Assembly (NCBI RefSeq): GCF_032930845.1
Contig: NZ_CP136758.1
Span: forward strand, 2,371,001-2,435,000
Direction: 5' to 3'
From: Parvularcula sp. LCG005
GTDB lineage: Bacteria > Pseudomonadota > Alphaproteobacteria > Caulobacterales > Parvularculaceae
Length of the DNA stretch: 64,000 bases
The notes under the pieces are model-generated. The model was not told the DNA's origin and did no database searches. It worked only from the letters and a program-made list of their open reading frames with translations. Of this stretch, positions 48,356-52,847 are shown piece by piece (position 1 is the stretch's first letter; each line of letters begins with the position of its first letter). Made by a program: the position numbers and the translations under genes.

Positions 48356-50500
48356 TCAGGCAGCCGATGGATTGGCCCAGCGCGACACGACCGAACGGCC
48401 CTCCTTGTCGACGAGGCTGATCGCCTCGAGTTCACGTAAGAAGCGTTTTTCGGTCAGCGGTTTTGTCAGGTACCCATCCATACCGAGTGACAGGCAATAT
48501 TCGCGCACCCCGTTCATGGCATCGCCCGTAAGCGCCAGCACGGGAACGGCCCCCCATTCCTCCCCCGATCGGCGGATCGCTTCGACGGTATCAGGACCAT
48601 CCATGACCGGCATGTGCATGTCGAGAAGCACCACATCGATGTCGAATTCCTTCAGCATCTCCAGTGTCTTCTCACCATTTTCCGCTTCGAGGACAGTGAC
48701 GCCATAAGGTTCAAGAAACAGTCGGCACAGCATGCGATTGAGCGGCTGGTCGTCCGCCACCAGTATCGTCAGCGCACTCATCATGCTCGACAGTCTATCC
48801 CGCAGGCATGGCGACTTGTTCTGGGTGGCGGCGCCTGGACTGACGGCCCCGGCCAAGAAAGTGAAGCTGAACACGGAACCCCGGCCAGGTGTACTTTCGG
48901 CGGAGACTTCGCCCTCCATCAGTTCGGCGAGCTTGGCGACGAGGGAGAGGCCAAGGCCCGTGCCATGAACGACGGTCATGGCCGTGCCGTGAACCTGCTC
49001 AAACGGGCGGAACAGGCGGGCAATGGTCATGGGATCCATCCCGATGCCCGTATCCCGCACACTGATCTTCACAGTGCTGCCGGATTGTCCCGTCGCCACC
49101 ACACGAGCCATCAGCTCAATCGTGCCCGACTTCGTGTATTTGATGGCGTTCGACAGAAGATTCGAGATGCACTGCTGTGTACGGACCGCATCAAAGCGCA
49201 GTTTCTCAGGCACATTGTCATCCACCTGAAGCGTCAGCACGATGCCCTTTTCATTGGCCTGCGGCTGCCACAGCGTCGCCTGGTGACGGAGCACATCCGT
49301 CAGGCTTTCTTCTGTCGGCACGATGGAGAATTTGCCTTCCTCGATTTTCGACATGTCCAGAATGTCGTTGAGGAGGGTCATCAACCCCTCGCACGACGCA
49401 AGCACCGTATCGACTTTCTCCGTCTGGTCGGGCGTCAGGGTCGTGCGATGCAGGGACTCCGCCATGCCGTAAATGCCGTTCAGCGGCGTACGGATTTCAT
49501 GGCTGATATTGGCAAGAAAATTCTGGCGCGTTCGCGTTTCGGCACGCGCCGCGCTTGCCTCCTCCCGCAACGTGTCAACATGCAGCATTTGCGTCGTGAT
49601 GTCAGCGAATGTCGAGATGACATATTGCATCACGCCAGTCGCCACGTCCCGTATCGGGCGCGCATTGATCCGTAGCCATCGGGATTCAAGCCGCGGATTC
49701 TGGACGCTAAGGACCGCGTCCGTAACGGGCATGCCTGTACGCAGGCAGATCATCGCAGGATGGTCCCGCATCTCAACGGGCTGACCCTCTTCATCTGTCA
49801 TCTGCCATTTCGGATCAATCGATTTGGCGCCGACCATATCATCGAGGGACAGGCCCAGAATTCTCGCCGCAGCCTCATTGCAGCTGACAATCTTGCCTGC
49901 CGCATCATTGACGATCATGCCTTCATACATGTTGGAGAGCGCAAGGGTGCGCAGTCGGTCGAGGTCTGCGGGCCGGGTCTGGGCCGCGCTCGGAATGGGC
50001 TGGCCCCGCAGGGCTGTACGGGTTTCAATGAATGTCGCCACCATACTGGCGAGACGGCGCACCTGCGAGATCTCATCCACCGTCCATTCCCGGGGCGTCT
50101 GCGATATTGCCGCCAGTGCACCAATGCGAGCTCCGCCGGACAGTTCGATCGGCACGCCAAGATAGCCGCGTATGCCCGGCTCACCGGTGACATATGGGTT
50201 AGCGCTAAAGCGCTCGTCCGTGACTGTATCAACAATCGTGAGCGGATCGGGCGTCTGGATCGTGACGGTACAGAAGGAATCGCCCCGGCAGGTTTCTTCC
50301 AGATCGACGCCGCGCTTGGCCTTGAAGACCTGACGATCCTCTTCAATCAGTGAAATGACGGCGATGGGCACCTGACAGATGGCCATGAGCTGCTCAACCG
50401 CATCCTCGAGAAAAGGCTCTGGCCCCGGCGACGACAGGCCCGTGTCAGCCAAGGCTGCAAGCCGCTTCTCTTCTGATATTGCTGCGTTAGGTGATGTCAC
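48356..50500 (-). CDS. Hybrid histidine kinase: GAF, PAS, HisKA, HATPase, receiver
   Basis: This 714-residue protein has no membrane segment. An N-terminal GAF domain (about 20-150, with EDRQVFKAKRGVD, RGDSFCTVTI and GYLGVPIEL) is of the type seen in light or redox sensors; no chromophore is implied. A PAS domain (about 180-300) follows, then the phosphorylated histidine in FLANISHEIRTPLNGI (His334), the ATPase boxes NLLSNAIKYTKSG, DTGIGMDP and GTGLGLSLVAKLAELM, and a C-terminal receiver with DVVLLDMHMPVMDGP (Asp627). The GTG start has GGAGA seven bases upstream; a TTG ten codons earlier is possible. It stands 127 bases after nrsF on the same strand. Confidence 0.93.
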   Translation of the reverse strand: MTSPNAAISEEKRLAALADTGLSSPGPEPFLEDAVEQLMAICQVPIAVISLIEEDRQVFKAKRGVDLEETCRGDSFCTVTIQTPDPLTIVDTVTDERFSANPYVTGEPGIRGYLGVPIELSGGARIGALAAISQTPREWTVDEISQVRRLASMVATFIETRTALRGQPIPSAAQTRPADLDRLRTLALSNMYEGMIVNDAAGKIVSCNEAAARILGLSLDDMVGAKSIDPKWQMTDEEGQPVEMRDHPAMICLRTGMPVTDAVLSVQNPRLESRWLRINARPIRDVATGVMQYVISTFADITTQMLHVDTLREEASAARAETRTRQNFLANISHEIRTPLNGIYGMAESLHRTTLTPDQTEKVDTVLASCEGLMTLLNDILDMSKIEEGKFSIVPTEESLTDVLRHQATLWQPQANEKGIVLTLQVDDNVPEKLRFDAVRTQQCISNLLSNAIKYTKSGTIELMARVVATGQSGSTVKISVRDTGIGMDPMTIARLFRPFEQVHGTAMTVVHGTGLGLSLVAKLAELMEGEVSAESTPGRGSVFSFTFLAGAVSPGAATQNKSPCLRDRLSSMMSALTILVADDQPLNRMLCRLFLEPYGVTVLEAENGEKTLEMLKEFDIDVVLLDMHMPVMDGPDTVEAIRRSGEEWGAVPVLALTGDAMNGVREYCLSLGMDGYLTKPLTEKRFLRELEAISLVDKEGRSVVSRWANPSAA

Positions 50501-50627
50501 CCGCTGCTCTCCGCCAGTTCCTTGGCGCAAGCTTTAACAATCCTGCATTAACGCGCTCCAAATTGACGCGGTAAAAACACCATAAAGTCCGATAGGAACT
50601 TTTTGAGGTATCCGGACAATCTTTTGT

Positions 50628-51263
50628 TTACCAACGGGCAAGGCGCGGCAGGATGAGCCGGGCTGCCAATGTCACGATGAATATACCGCCGCCATACCAG
50701 GCCGCTAAATACCACAGACTGACAAAGGGGCACTGCAGCGAGTAGATAAATGCCCCCCATGTCCCGCCAGCAAGGCCGACGAGAAGCGCGCTCTGCCCCG
50801 GCTGCACACTGGCGCCGCGCATCATCAGCAGGCTGAGAACAAGAATCAGCGGCAAGGCCAGAGCAAGGATACCCGCGACACAGGCCGATCCGTGCTGAGG
50901 CGCAAAGGCAGCAGAGAGACTGCCCGCCAGCGACCAGTCAAACCCCATCAGCGCAAGAAGGAACAGGACCGCCGACATCACAGCTGTAAAGGGCCCAATG
51001 CGCCGTGCAGACGGACCGAACGAATAAAGCGCCATCAGGGTAAAGCCGATCGTGCCCGCCCCCAGAAGCGCCATCTTGAAAATGGCACGCGCCGGGTCCC
51101 ACAGCAGTGCCTGCTGAAACCCGTCGCCCAGGACAAGAACGTATGTTCCGGCAAACTGAACCAAAGCGATGGCAATGACAGCAAGGATCTCGCGCGATAC
51201 GCGGCGAGGCCGGACGGGCTCAGCGGTTGCCACAAGGCTGTCGATGAAAGGAGAGCTACTCAT
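50628..51263 (-). CDS. nrsF: NrsF-type (DUF1109) membrane anti-sigma factor
   Basis: NrsF holds its partner ECF sigma factor at the inner membrane and releases it under oxidative or heavy-metal stress in Caulobacter. This 211-residue protein has six hydrophobic helices and little else. Conserved Cys and His positions appear in APQHGSACVAGILALALPL and LQCPFVSLWYLAAW. The ATG start (MSSSPFIDSL) overlaps the end of the sigma-factor gene by eight bases, the expected coupling of sigma and anti-sigma. Partner and stress signal are inferred from family and context. Confidence 0.85.
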   Translation of the reverse strand: MSSSPFIDSLVATAEPVRPRRVSREILAVIAIALVQFAGTYVLVLGDGFQQALLWDPARAIFKMALLGAGTIGFTLMALYSFGPSARRIGPFTAVMSAVLFLLALMGFDWSLAGSLSAAFAPQHGSACVAGILALALPLILVLSLLMMRGASVQPGQSALLVGLAGGTWGAFIYSLQCPFVSLWYLAAWYGGGIFIVTLAARLILPRLARW

Positions 51264-51825
51264 AGGATTTCTCAAGATATTTGATCAGTTTCTTCCTGGC
51301 GCGGTGGATGTTGACTTTGACCAGTGACGCACTCTGGCCGGTCATGATGGCAATTTCCTCAATCGATCGCCCCTCCACCTTGGCGAGGGTCAGCGCCTCG
51401 GCCTGCGCTTTGGGCAGGTGTTGGATCACCCGTTCCAGGACAATCCGTGCCAGGACGCTTTCCTCGTGACATTCAAACCCATGGACGTCCTGCAGTTCGT
51501 CTTCTTCGGCCCGGTAAATGGCGCGCAGCCGATCGAGCCATTTAAATCGAGCGATGGCCACGAACCACGGCGCGAAGGGTCGTGACGGGTCATAAGTGTG
51601 ACGTTTGCGGTGCACGGCCAGCAACGTTTCCTGCACCACGTCATCGACCTGATCAGGCACAAGGCGGGTGGACAGATACCGTCGCAACCATGTCTGACAG
51701 GCAACCAGCACCTCGTCATAGGCACGCCTGTCCCCCCGCTGGGCCAATGCCATCAATGGACCGCAGGGGTTCAGGTCGATCATGCCTGATGCCGATCGCT
51801 GTGTGTCCAGCTGCACAACCTGCAT
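51256..51825 (-). CDS. sigF: ECF sigma factor, SigF/ECF16-like
   Basis: Region 2 contains DEVLVACQTWLRRYLSTRL, DQVDDVVQETLLAVHRKRH and PFAPWFVAIARFKWLDRLR. Region 4 is the helix-turn-helix LPKAQAEALTLAKVEGRSIEEIAIMTGQ followed by VKVNIHRARKKL. The coding frame is open up to an ATG at 51876, but the proposed -10 element of its promoter ends only six bases before that codon. I therefore start at the next ATG (MQVVQLDTQ), which has AGGA seven bases upstream and leaves a leader of about 50 bases, giving 189 residues. It is followed by the overlapping nrsF gene. Confidence 0.88.
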   Translation of the reverse strand: MQVVQLDTQRSASGMIDLNPCGPLMALAQRGDRRAYDEVLVACQTWLRRYLSTRLVPDQVDDVVQETLLAVHRKRHTYDPSRPFAPWFVAIARFKWLDRLRAIYRAEEDELQDVHGFECHEESVLARIVLERVIQHLPKAQAEALTLAKVEGRSIEEIAIMTGQSASLVKVNIHRARKKLIKYLEKSYE

Positions 51826-51881
51826 TTTTGCGTCCTGCCCTCCGCTGACCGACGCCAGTTCGTCGACCTTTGTCATCGGTA

Positions 51882-51906
51882 TTCGCCCCCAGTTGCAGGA
51901 GGTTAC
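51882..51906 (-). promoter_or_regulatory. SigF-type promoter for the sigF-nrsF operon
   Basis: On the minus strand GTAACC (51906-51901) and CGAA (51885-51882) are separated by 15 bases; the flanking bases extend the match to TGTAACC and CGAAT. This resembles the -35/-10 motif I recall for Caulobacter SigF (GTAACC-N16-CGAA). An identical pair faces the other way in the same intergenic region. Positive autoregulation is inferred. Confidence 0.7.
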
Positions 51907-51952
51907 ACGGACCAGCCAAAAATCGGGAAGAGGTCCTGCTGCATTACCGCGT

Positions 51953-51978
51953 GTAACCCTTCCCGCCCGCTGACCGAA
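51953..51978 (+). promoter_or_regulatory. SigF-type promoter for the Spondin_N/VPLPA gene
   Basis: GTAACC (51953-51958) and CGAA (51975-51978) are separated by exactly 16 bases; flanking bases again give TGTAACC and CGAAT. Transcription should start about 35 bases before the ATG of the Spondin_N gene, and AAGGAGAGG in that leader is a strong ribosome site. Confidence 0.75.
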
Positions 51979-52019
51979 TCACGGGTCATGGCAATATCGC
52001 CAAGGAGAGGACCACCATA

Positions 52020-52847
52020 ATGACACATCGCAGTATTCTGTCAGCTTTGGGCGCCGTCGCAGCAGGCCTGGGCCTGTGCGCGAGCACTGCCCATGCCCTG
52101 CCCGTCACCATCAGCATCACCAACAATAGCGAGGCGGGCGGATTAAACCTGACACCGCTCTTCATCGCTTTTCACAATGGCGCCTATGATGCGTTTGACG
52201 TCGGCGCGGGGGCATCGGCTGGCGTCGAGCTGATTGCTGAAACAGGCGATGCCTCAGGGGCAATGGCGGAGGCTTTGGGCGCCGATGCGAATGCCCTGAC
52301 CGGCGTTATCACGGCACCGGGCGGTTTTGCCGGTGCACCGATCATTGAACCTGGCGAAAGCGCGAGCTTCACCTTCGATGTCAATCCGATGACCCAGCGC
52401 TTTCTGAGCTATCTGTCCATGGTCATCCCGTCCAACGACACGTTCATCGGCAATGGCAGCGCCCTTGAGGTGTTCAATGCCGCGGGCGCCTATCTGGGTG
52501 ACCGCACATTGATCATCGACGGCAACGCGATCTGGGACGCCGGGACAGAGGCAAATGACCTGAATGATGGCGCTGCGTTTGTCGTGGGTCAGGATGCAGC
52601 GGGCGGAATTGAGACGATGGATCCCGTAGCGCTCAGCAACGGCATTGCCGCGATGGCTGTGGCATTGCCCACGGGTGATCTGATGTCACCGGCGCTGGCC
52701 AATTTCTTTTCGGACCGCAGTGCCTTCAGACTGGCGACAATCTCGATTTCCGCAGATCCGGTCCCCGTCCCGGCCGCGCTCCCGCTTTTCGCCGCAGCGC
52801 TGGGCGGCGGTGCATTCTTCCGTAAGCGGCTTAAAAAATCGGTCTAA
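52020..52847 (+). CDS. Spondin_N domain protein with VPLPA-type C-terminal sorting signal
   Basis: The 275-residue precursor has a signal peptide ([20 protein letters not shown]...AHA). A Spondin_N-like domain spans about 27-240: [56 protein letters not shown] and [15 protein letters not shown], the last being a strong family marker. The C-terminus is a PEP-CTERM/VPLPA-type signal: [20 protein letters not shown], then RKRLKKSV. Such tails are thought to be processed by an exosortase for export to the surface. It diverges from sigF behind a matching SigF-type promoter. Its stop overlaps the convergent uppS stop by four bases. Confidence 0.88.

Follow-up and report, generated by a model that had tools for sequence, protein, structure and literature searches.

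The ECF16-type sigma factors are encoded together with anti-sigma factors of the NrsF family. In Caulobacter crescentus, the ECF16 sigma factor gene sigF is followed by the gene for NrsF, an anti-sigma factor with two conserved cysteines, and SigF promoters have the form GTAACC-N16-CGAA, including one before sigF itself, as described in the available text of PMC3511200. The eight targets listed there (CC2748, CC2905-2907, and CC3254-3257) encode a YedY-type enzyme, proteins of the DUF2063 type and other proteins of unknown function, and a DoxX protein; none is termed a Spondin_N protein in that text (PMC3511200). In Brucella melitensis, the available text of PMC8315932 describes BcrS-AbcS, an ECF16 system with an anti-sigma factor of the NrsF family and a full regulon of 36 genes, which controls an adjacent operon for exported proteins as well as methionine sulfoxide repair. 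Other ECF16 systems regulate peptides rich in methionine and also methionine sulfoxide reductases (PMC8315932, same text). In Sinorhizobium meliloti, motifs were predicted before the operon of the ECF16 sigma factor RpoE7 and before one target operon, SMb20527-SMb20530, which is orthologous to CC3254-CC3257 (PMC6180224, available text).

We analyzed a 64-kb stretch of DNA, referred to here as the window (C1:2371001-2435000), from a genome of 3.08 Mb in a single contig (G000). The window contains a sigma factor gene followed by a gene for an NrsF-like anti-sigma factor with both conserved cysteines, as in Caulobacter. As in Brucella, the pair adjoins a gene for an apparently exported protein and may be tied to methionine sulfoxide repair, and, as in S. 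meliloti, predicted motifs precede both the sigma operon and a target. The adjacent gene encodes a protein with a Spondin_N domain, unlike the methionine-rich peptide and MsrQP-like system next to bcrS-abcS (PMC8315932, available text). From its domains, the presence of NrsF, and the promoter boxes, this is very probably an ECF16-type SigF/NrsF circuit that drives its own operon, the Spondin_N gene, and unlinked redox-repair genes.

A gene pair of the SigF-NrsF type

The sigF-like gene (51256..51825, minus strand) encodes an ECF sigma factor of 189 aa that has regions 2 and 4 only (Pfam Sigma70_r2, E = 4.1e-11; Sigma70_r4_2, E = 5.4e-15). The longest open reading frame reaches 51876. Since just 3 nt separate the end of the -10 box of the predicted promoter described below from the first in-frame ATG (51876), the ATG at 51825 is the more likely start of translation, and it also aligns with the starts of sigF in two members of the genus (G005 and G006). 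Three further SigF-like proteins from the family share 31-37 percent identity with the product.

The nrsF-like gene (50628..51263, minus strand) is directly downstream. The initial annotation of this DNA had noted that the two genes overlap, and the overlap is 8 nt: the ATG of nrsF is at 51263 and the stop codon of the sigma factor gene is at 51258-51256. The product matches NrsF (PF06532) over its full length (E = 8.6e-24; 84.9 bits, cut-off 26.8) and is the only match to this family in the whole G000 genome. The two conserved cysteines are Cys128 and Cys178, counted from ATG 51263, and the corresponding columns hold cysteine in 16/16 and 14/16 aligned NrsF proteins. The protein is placed in the NrsF family by Pfam; its score against the equivalog model AntiSigF_NrsF (NF042994) was 28.7 bits, with a cut-off of 300. 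Together, these features support the assignment of the pair to the SigF-NrsF type.

The surroundings of nrsF vary. In G000, nrsF is separated from a cdsA-like gene by a gene for a GAF-PAS hybrid histidine kinase (48356-50530), and in G005, G006, and G007 nothing intervenes between the two (gene names by eye). A single contig of G038 (L074) carries two genes for NrsF; one is beside a DUF2282 gene, and the product of the other has a serine in place of the second conserved cysteine.

Predicted SigF promoters upstream of sigF and the Spondin_N gene

The gap between sigF and the divergent Spondin_N gene contains two outward-facing sites that resemble SigF promoters. One, TGTAACC-N15-CGAATA (51880..51907, minus strand; core boxes GTAACC-N15-CGAA at 51882-51907), was found in the sequence and by a motif scan and is upstream of the sigF-nrsF operon. 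The other, TGTAACC-N16-CGAATC (51952..51980, plus strand; core boxes GTAACC-N16-CGAA at 51952-51978), ends 39 nt before the ATG of the Spondin_N gene. The pattern TGTAACN-N15/16-CGAAT has exactly two matches in the window, both in this gap, and 100 dinucleotide-preserving shuffles of the window gave a mean of 0.02 matches and none with two. The two copies and their spacers of 15 and 16 had been pointed out in the initial annotation, along with GTAACC-N16-CGAA as the Caulobacter SigF promoter, which agrees with the available text of PMC3511200.

The site upstream of sigF is likely an autoregulatory promoter. Its boxes match the autoregulatory promoter type GTAACC-N16-CGAA, with a spacer of N15 in the window in place of the N16 found in Caulobacter (PMC3511200, available text).

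Conservation of the predicted sites within the genus

NrsF is present in 8 of ten genus genomes and a Spondin_N match in four (G000, G001, G007, and G009), all of which also have NrsF; no match to Spondin_N was obtained in the other four members that carry sigF-nrsF. The Spondin_N gene adjoins sigF in G000 and G007, is approximately 380 kb from it on the same contig in G009, and is on a different contig in G001, whose assembly is fragmented. The sigF gene of G005, a genome that gave no match to Spondin_N, is at the same place as in G000 and has a uppS-like neighbour (by eye).

Sites of the SigF form were found before both genes wherever they occur in the genus. A SigF-like site precedes sigF in 8/8 members with nrsF, with variant boxes in G001, G003, G004, and G009 (by eye); the spacer is N15 in G000 and G006 and N16 in the other six. 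GTAAC-N16/17-CGAA is just upstream of Spondin_N in all four members that have the gene, and the distance from the end of CGAA to the preferred ATG is 41 nt in G000, 41 nt in G007, 45 nt in G009, and 37 nt in G001, where the preferred ATG is 24 nt inside the longest open reading frame and was picked by alignment. Among 4000 shuffles of each of these upstream regions, 3 (G000), 5 (G007), 12 (G009), and 2 (G001) matched.

We also scanned 189 regions upstream of called open reading frames of at least 100 aa in ten genus loci whose selection rested on NrsF or Spondin_N and was independent of the motif. Six of these regions, those of sigF in G000 and G005 and of the four Spondin_N genes, matched GTAAC-N16..18-CGAA, and none matched the reversed pattern. 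The other sigF genes are missing from this set because of variant boxes or a start misplaced by the crude ORF picker.

A weight matrix built from the eight sigF promoters alone was then applied to the regions upstream of Spondin_N, and gave p = 0.0005 (the floor) in G000, 0.0005 in G007, 0.028 in G001, and 0.16 (not significant) in G009. The weak points are the Spondin_N genes away from sigF (G001 and G009), and these are backed by the exact core and by position. The same matrix gave p = 0.011 in G045, a family genome with no NrsF match. The loci of the six family genomes that have Spondin_N and no NrsF match (G011, G016, G037, G045, G047, and G053), three of which are less than 92 percent complete, contain no exact site. 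Co-occurrence of NrsF and Spondin_N among 149 relatives was at the level of chance (4 observed versus 45x11/149 = 3.3 expected). Taken together, the comparison of upstream sequences gives good support for the predicted co-regulation of sigF and Spondin_N.

The chromosomal place of sigF-nrsF in G001, G003, G004, and G009 differs from that in G000, G005, G006, and G007 (by eye; L064, L066, L068, and L069). An engB-like gene is near sigF-nrsF in G001, G003, and G004, and G009 has other neighbours in common with them.

Linkage of sigF, nrsF, and Spondin_N genes in other bacteria

The initial annotation had raised the question of whether this synteny recurs in other genomes. We found that sigF, nrsF, and Spondin_N are again linked in Rhizomicrobium (L138) and in four genomes placed in Gammaproteobacteria (L166, L188, L192, and G884). 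A wider survey gave at least 524 Spondin_N relatives, and among the best 80 of these, which include four from the family genomes with no NrsF match, there were four with NrsF and a SigF-like gene within the flanks (up to 5 kb). The genes are divergent, as in the window, in Rhizomicrobium electricum (L138), in the order sigF-nrsF-Spondin_N in L166 (Gammaproteobacteria) and L188 (Thiotrichales), and in the order Spondin_N-sigF-nrsF in L192 (a proteobacterium, genome G554).

We searched 46 Spondin_N genomes whole, 35 of them genomes judged proteobacterial by title or tree from the best 80 of at least 524 relatives and 11 from a draw on the class. NrsF was present in eight, adjacent to Spondin_N in the four just described; the others are three Bradyrhizobium genomes and G481. 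Bacterial Spondin_N proteins are not rare, being present in 61/369 genomes of the class of G554 and in 12/385 of the window's class. The former class also includes G560, with a locus (L212) titled Gammaproteobacteria. Among the 60 Spondin_N genomes of the former class besides G554, three have NrsF, and in G884 the genes are consecutive in the order sigF-nrsF-Spondin_N. With the genus included, both genes are present in 15 genomes and are adjacent in 7 and not adjacent in 8. The chance of such adjacency is about 1e-14 at 10 kb per 3.5 Mb; this estimate is rough, since similarity had been used to rank one of the sets and the genomes, being related, do not count as independent. A survey of plasmids gave nine records with a relative; of the two that were examined, the stretch from Vibrio had no annotation, and a profile search of both found no NrsF.

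The sites at these linked loci are of more than one kind. In G884, the window's own boxes, TGTAACC-N16-CGAATC, can be read 126 nt before Spondin_N; a test of 150 bp upstream shows no site in G884 because the site is beyond those 150 bp. In L166, L188, and L192, TCGTTT-N13-CGTA(T/G)TG precedes Spondin_N, and it also precedes sigF in L166 and L188 (by eye). This pattern was built from those five sites, which match by construction; in the three whole genomes it has one further match, approximately 150 bp before a DUF547 gene, and the reversed control has none. In R. electricum, TGTAACC-N16-CGTCAT is readable before sigF, and CGTAACT-N16-CGTAAT precedes the gene for a small methionine-rich protein between sigF and Spondin_N. 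That protein (L138:4448-4756) has 13 methionines in 102 aa, a signal-like start, and no matches in Pfam or NCBIfam.

When mapped on a tree built from 82 Spondin_N domains, the eight linked or site-bearing rows (G884 left out) need three changes, forced by well-supported branches in a tree whose bootstrap had not settled, indicating that the association arose more than once or was often lost. The Spondin_N gene had been taken in the initial annotation for an apparent direct target of SigF, and this reading is supported by the sites in all four genus members that have the gene and by the linkage elsewhere.

Physical linkage that is repeated in several gene orders could also mean that Spondin_N is an accessory of signalling. 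Once exported, it would act back on NrsF or convey the condition of the outer envelope, and its gene would be kept beside the pair for that reason. By a signature count, a response-regulator gene is present in eight or more of 30 short Spondin_N loci in the class of G554, and two more loci have one by eye, indicating that the domain is found near sensors in a wider range of settings. However, Spondin_N is away from sigF in two members of the genus and four others with sigF-nrsF have no match to it, so NrsF presumably works without Spondin_N. We consider an accessory role unlikely, and prefer the reading in which Spondin_N is an output of the SigF circuit.

Candidate SigF sites elsewhere in the genome

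Genome-wide counts of the motif were of limited use. The strict form, GTAACC-N16-CGAA, had four matches in G000 versus two for the reversed control, barely above it, and a looser pattern (N12-17) had 12 versus 33. Over the ten genus genomes, TGTAACN-N15/16-CGAA had 62 matches, below the 101 of the reversed control, and we rejected site counts as proof of a regulon. Five of the 62 matches are known sigF/Spondin_N sites or their neighbours, and 47 were examined, 27 of which fall inside an open reading frame called by the crude ORF picker, including sites associated with MsrA (G003), radical SAM (G005), glutathione-reductase-like, DsbD, and DoxX-like genes.

Several of the sites are near genes for thiol and methionine repair. 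Our assignment of redox genes relied on where the sites are, what the genes encode, and whether the combination recurs in two species, and not on counts. In G000, sites of the SigF form are 34 bp upstream of an MsrA gene and 61 bp upstream of a VTT-domain gene that is followed by a disulfide oxidoreductase gene. In sister species, there are sites for MsrA (G003), VTT (G006), AhpC/TSA-like (G003 and G009), catalase and DsbD (G003), radical SAM (G005, with TGTAACG, and G007), and DUF1223 and glutathione-reductase-like (G006) genes. Those found in two species each are VTT (G000 and G006), MsrA (G000 and G003), AhpC-like (G003 and G009), and radical SAM (G005 and G007). Each of these assignments is tentative because some sites are at unusual distances (3 nt, or within the called start) and the counts are below the reversed control. 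Another possible SigF target is a gene with weak similarity to DoxX (PF07681, E = 0.033; 15.3 bits, cut-off 23.6), which also has a site upstream. The theme of thiol and methionine repair agrees with the ECF16 systems described in the available text of PMC8315932. Because sites of the same form precede the MsrA gene and the VTT/disulfide oxidoreductase pair in G000, we reject the description of the circuit as self-contained that had been suggested.

It could be argued that both sites in the gap are coincidental, or that the sigF site alone is functional and Spondin_N is transcribed from another promoter, since these genomes have many short motifs of this kind, as the reversed controls indicate, and G009 has a weak site (p = 0.16). 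In contrast, the site recurs in every one of the four genus members that carry Spondin_N, at a near-constant distance from the ATG and in two cases away from sigF, G884 carries identical boxes, and a consensus scan of the plus strand of the gap found no sigma-70-like site. We regard coincidence as improbable, and believe that transcription of Spondin_N from the predicted SigF site accounts better for these observations.

Properties of the Spondin_N protein

The Spondin_N gene (52020..52847, plus strand) encodes a protein of 275 aa that scores above the cut-offs of both domain models (Spond_N, PF06468, E = 1.4e-8, 35.6 bits, cut-off 24; NF038123, E = 5.2e-33, 114.9 bits, cut-off 40). It has a signal-peptide-like start (by eye), the spondin domain, a C-terminal hydrophobic helix, and a basic tail. 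The AlphaFold2 model (mean pLDDT 88.4) has a confident, strand-rich domain between the first helix and the C-terminal helix. The end of the protein (52761..52844, plus strand), scanned alone, scored 20.5 bits with the PEP-CTERM model TIGR02595 (cut-off 16) and 17.9 bits with the VPLPA-CTERM model TIGR03370 (cut-off 25.35), so that of the VPLPA-CTERM tail first annotated here, a generic PEP-CTERM-like sorting tail stands and the VPLPA subtype does not. There are two exosortase matches in the G000 genome. The linked relative in G884 ends without a PEP-CTERM-like tail, indicating that surface sorting is not constant to the association.

The domain is homologous to that of animal spondins. A profile of 25 Spondin_N proteins matched spondin-1 (3q13, E = 5e-7) and spondin-2 (3d34, E = 1.9e-6); a PSxD motif is common to the bacterial proteins and both spondins, and DAGTE/D is shared with spondin-2. 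Unlike the animal spondins, the bacterial protein consists of a single domain between a signal-like start and a tail of the PEP-CTERM-like kind, and no thrombospondin repeat was matched. By analogy with the animal homologues, Spondin_N may bind metal. We did not adopt LPS binding by analogy with mindin, because LPS recognition is ascribed to the thrombospondin repeat in the available text of PMC6484411. Our searches of open-licence PMC text found no published link between spondin and ECF sigma factors, DUF1109, or PEP-CTERM, and no role for bacterial Spondin_N proteins; the matches, by title, concern insects, algae, and zebrafish.

Spondin_N might instead be sacrificed to oxidants as a scavenger, in the manner of the methionine-rich peptide in the ECF16 systems of Brucella and Azospira. 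This would fit with the control of such peptides and of methionine sulfoxide reductases by ECF16 systems elsewhere (PMC8315932, available text) and with the small methionine-rich protein encoded between sigF and Spondin_N in Rhizomicrobium. A sacrificial role, whether of methionine or of thiols, is disfavoured by composition and in our view highly improbable, as the nine linked or site-bearing proteins have an ordinary methionine content (0.8-2.4 percent; the mean of 46 others is 1.54, with an sd of 1.00) and eight of the nine have no cysteine after the first 25 residues.

Proposed circuit

In the circuit that we propose, SigF would be kept inactive by NrsF, a cysteine-bearing membrane protein (two conserved residues), and would be released when an oxidant or a thiol-reactive metal disturbs NrsF. 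Free SigF would then activate transcription of the sigF-nrsF operon, of Spondin_N from the divergent TGTAACC-N16-CGAATC site, and of unlinked envelope redox-repair genes, with Spondin_N acting as an exported effector of the response, perhaps one that binds metal. We infer that the window SigF reads these sites, and we likewise infer the inducing signal and the function of Spondin_N. The response to membrane stress and the surface remodelling that had been suggested for this locus were not supported; the company of genes points to redox damage in the envelope.

If the circuit operates in this way, the outputs of ECF16 systems would extend beyond the methionine and thiol repair and metal-induced operons described in the available published text. 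A tie to a stress regulator would also give a testable handle on some Spondin_N proteins, through the class of inducer (hypochlorite or thiol-reactive metals), the promoter, and the phenotype of a deletion. More speculatively, and with considerable doubt, spondin-domain proteins might be an output that SigF/NrsF systems of Proteobacteria, and perhaps other envelope sensors, have recruited repeatedly. They would then form a new class of exported, metal-binding, envelope-protective proteins, a bacterial counterpart of the animal spondin fold in envelope stress, whose tie to NrsF originated on several occasions, one of them involving another promoter sequence.

We also noted the arrangement of Spondin_N genes in the class of G554. 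In the 30 loci examined there (L231-L260), the Spondin_N genes are often in tandem pairs. The response-regulator genes counted there by signature, in at least eight loci, are OmpR-like, and the two loci that have one by eye are L240 and L241.
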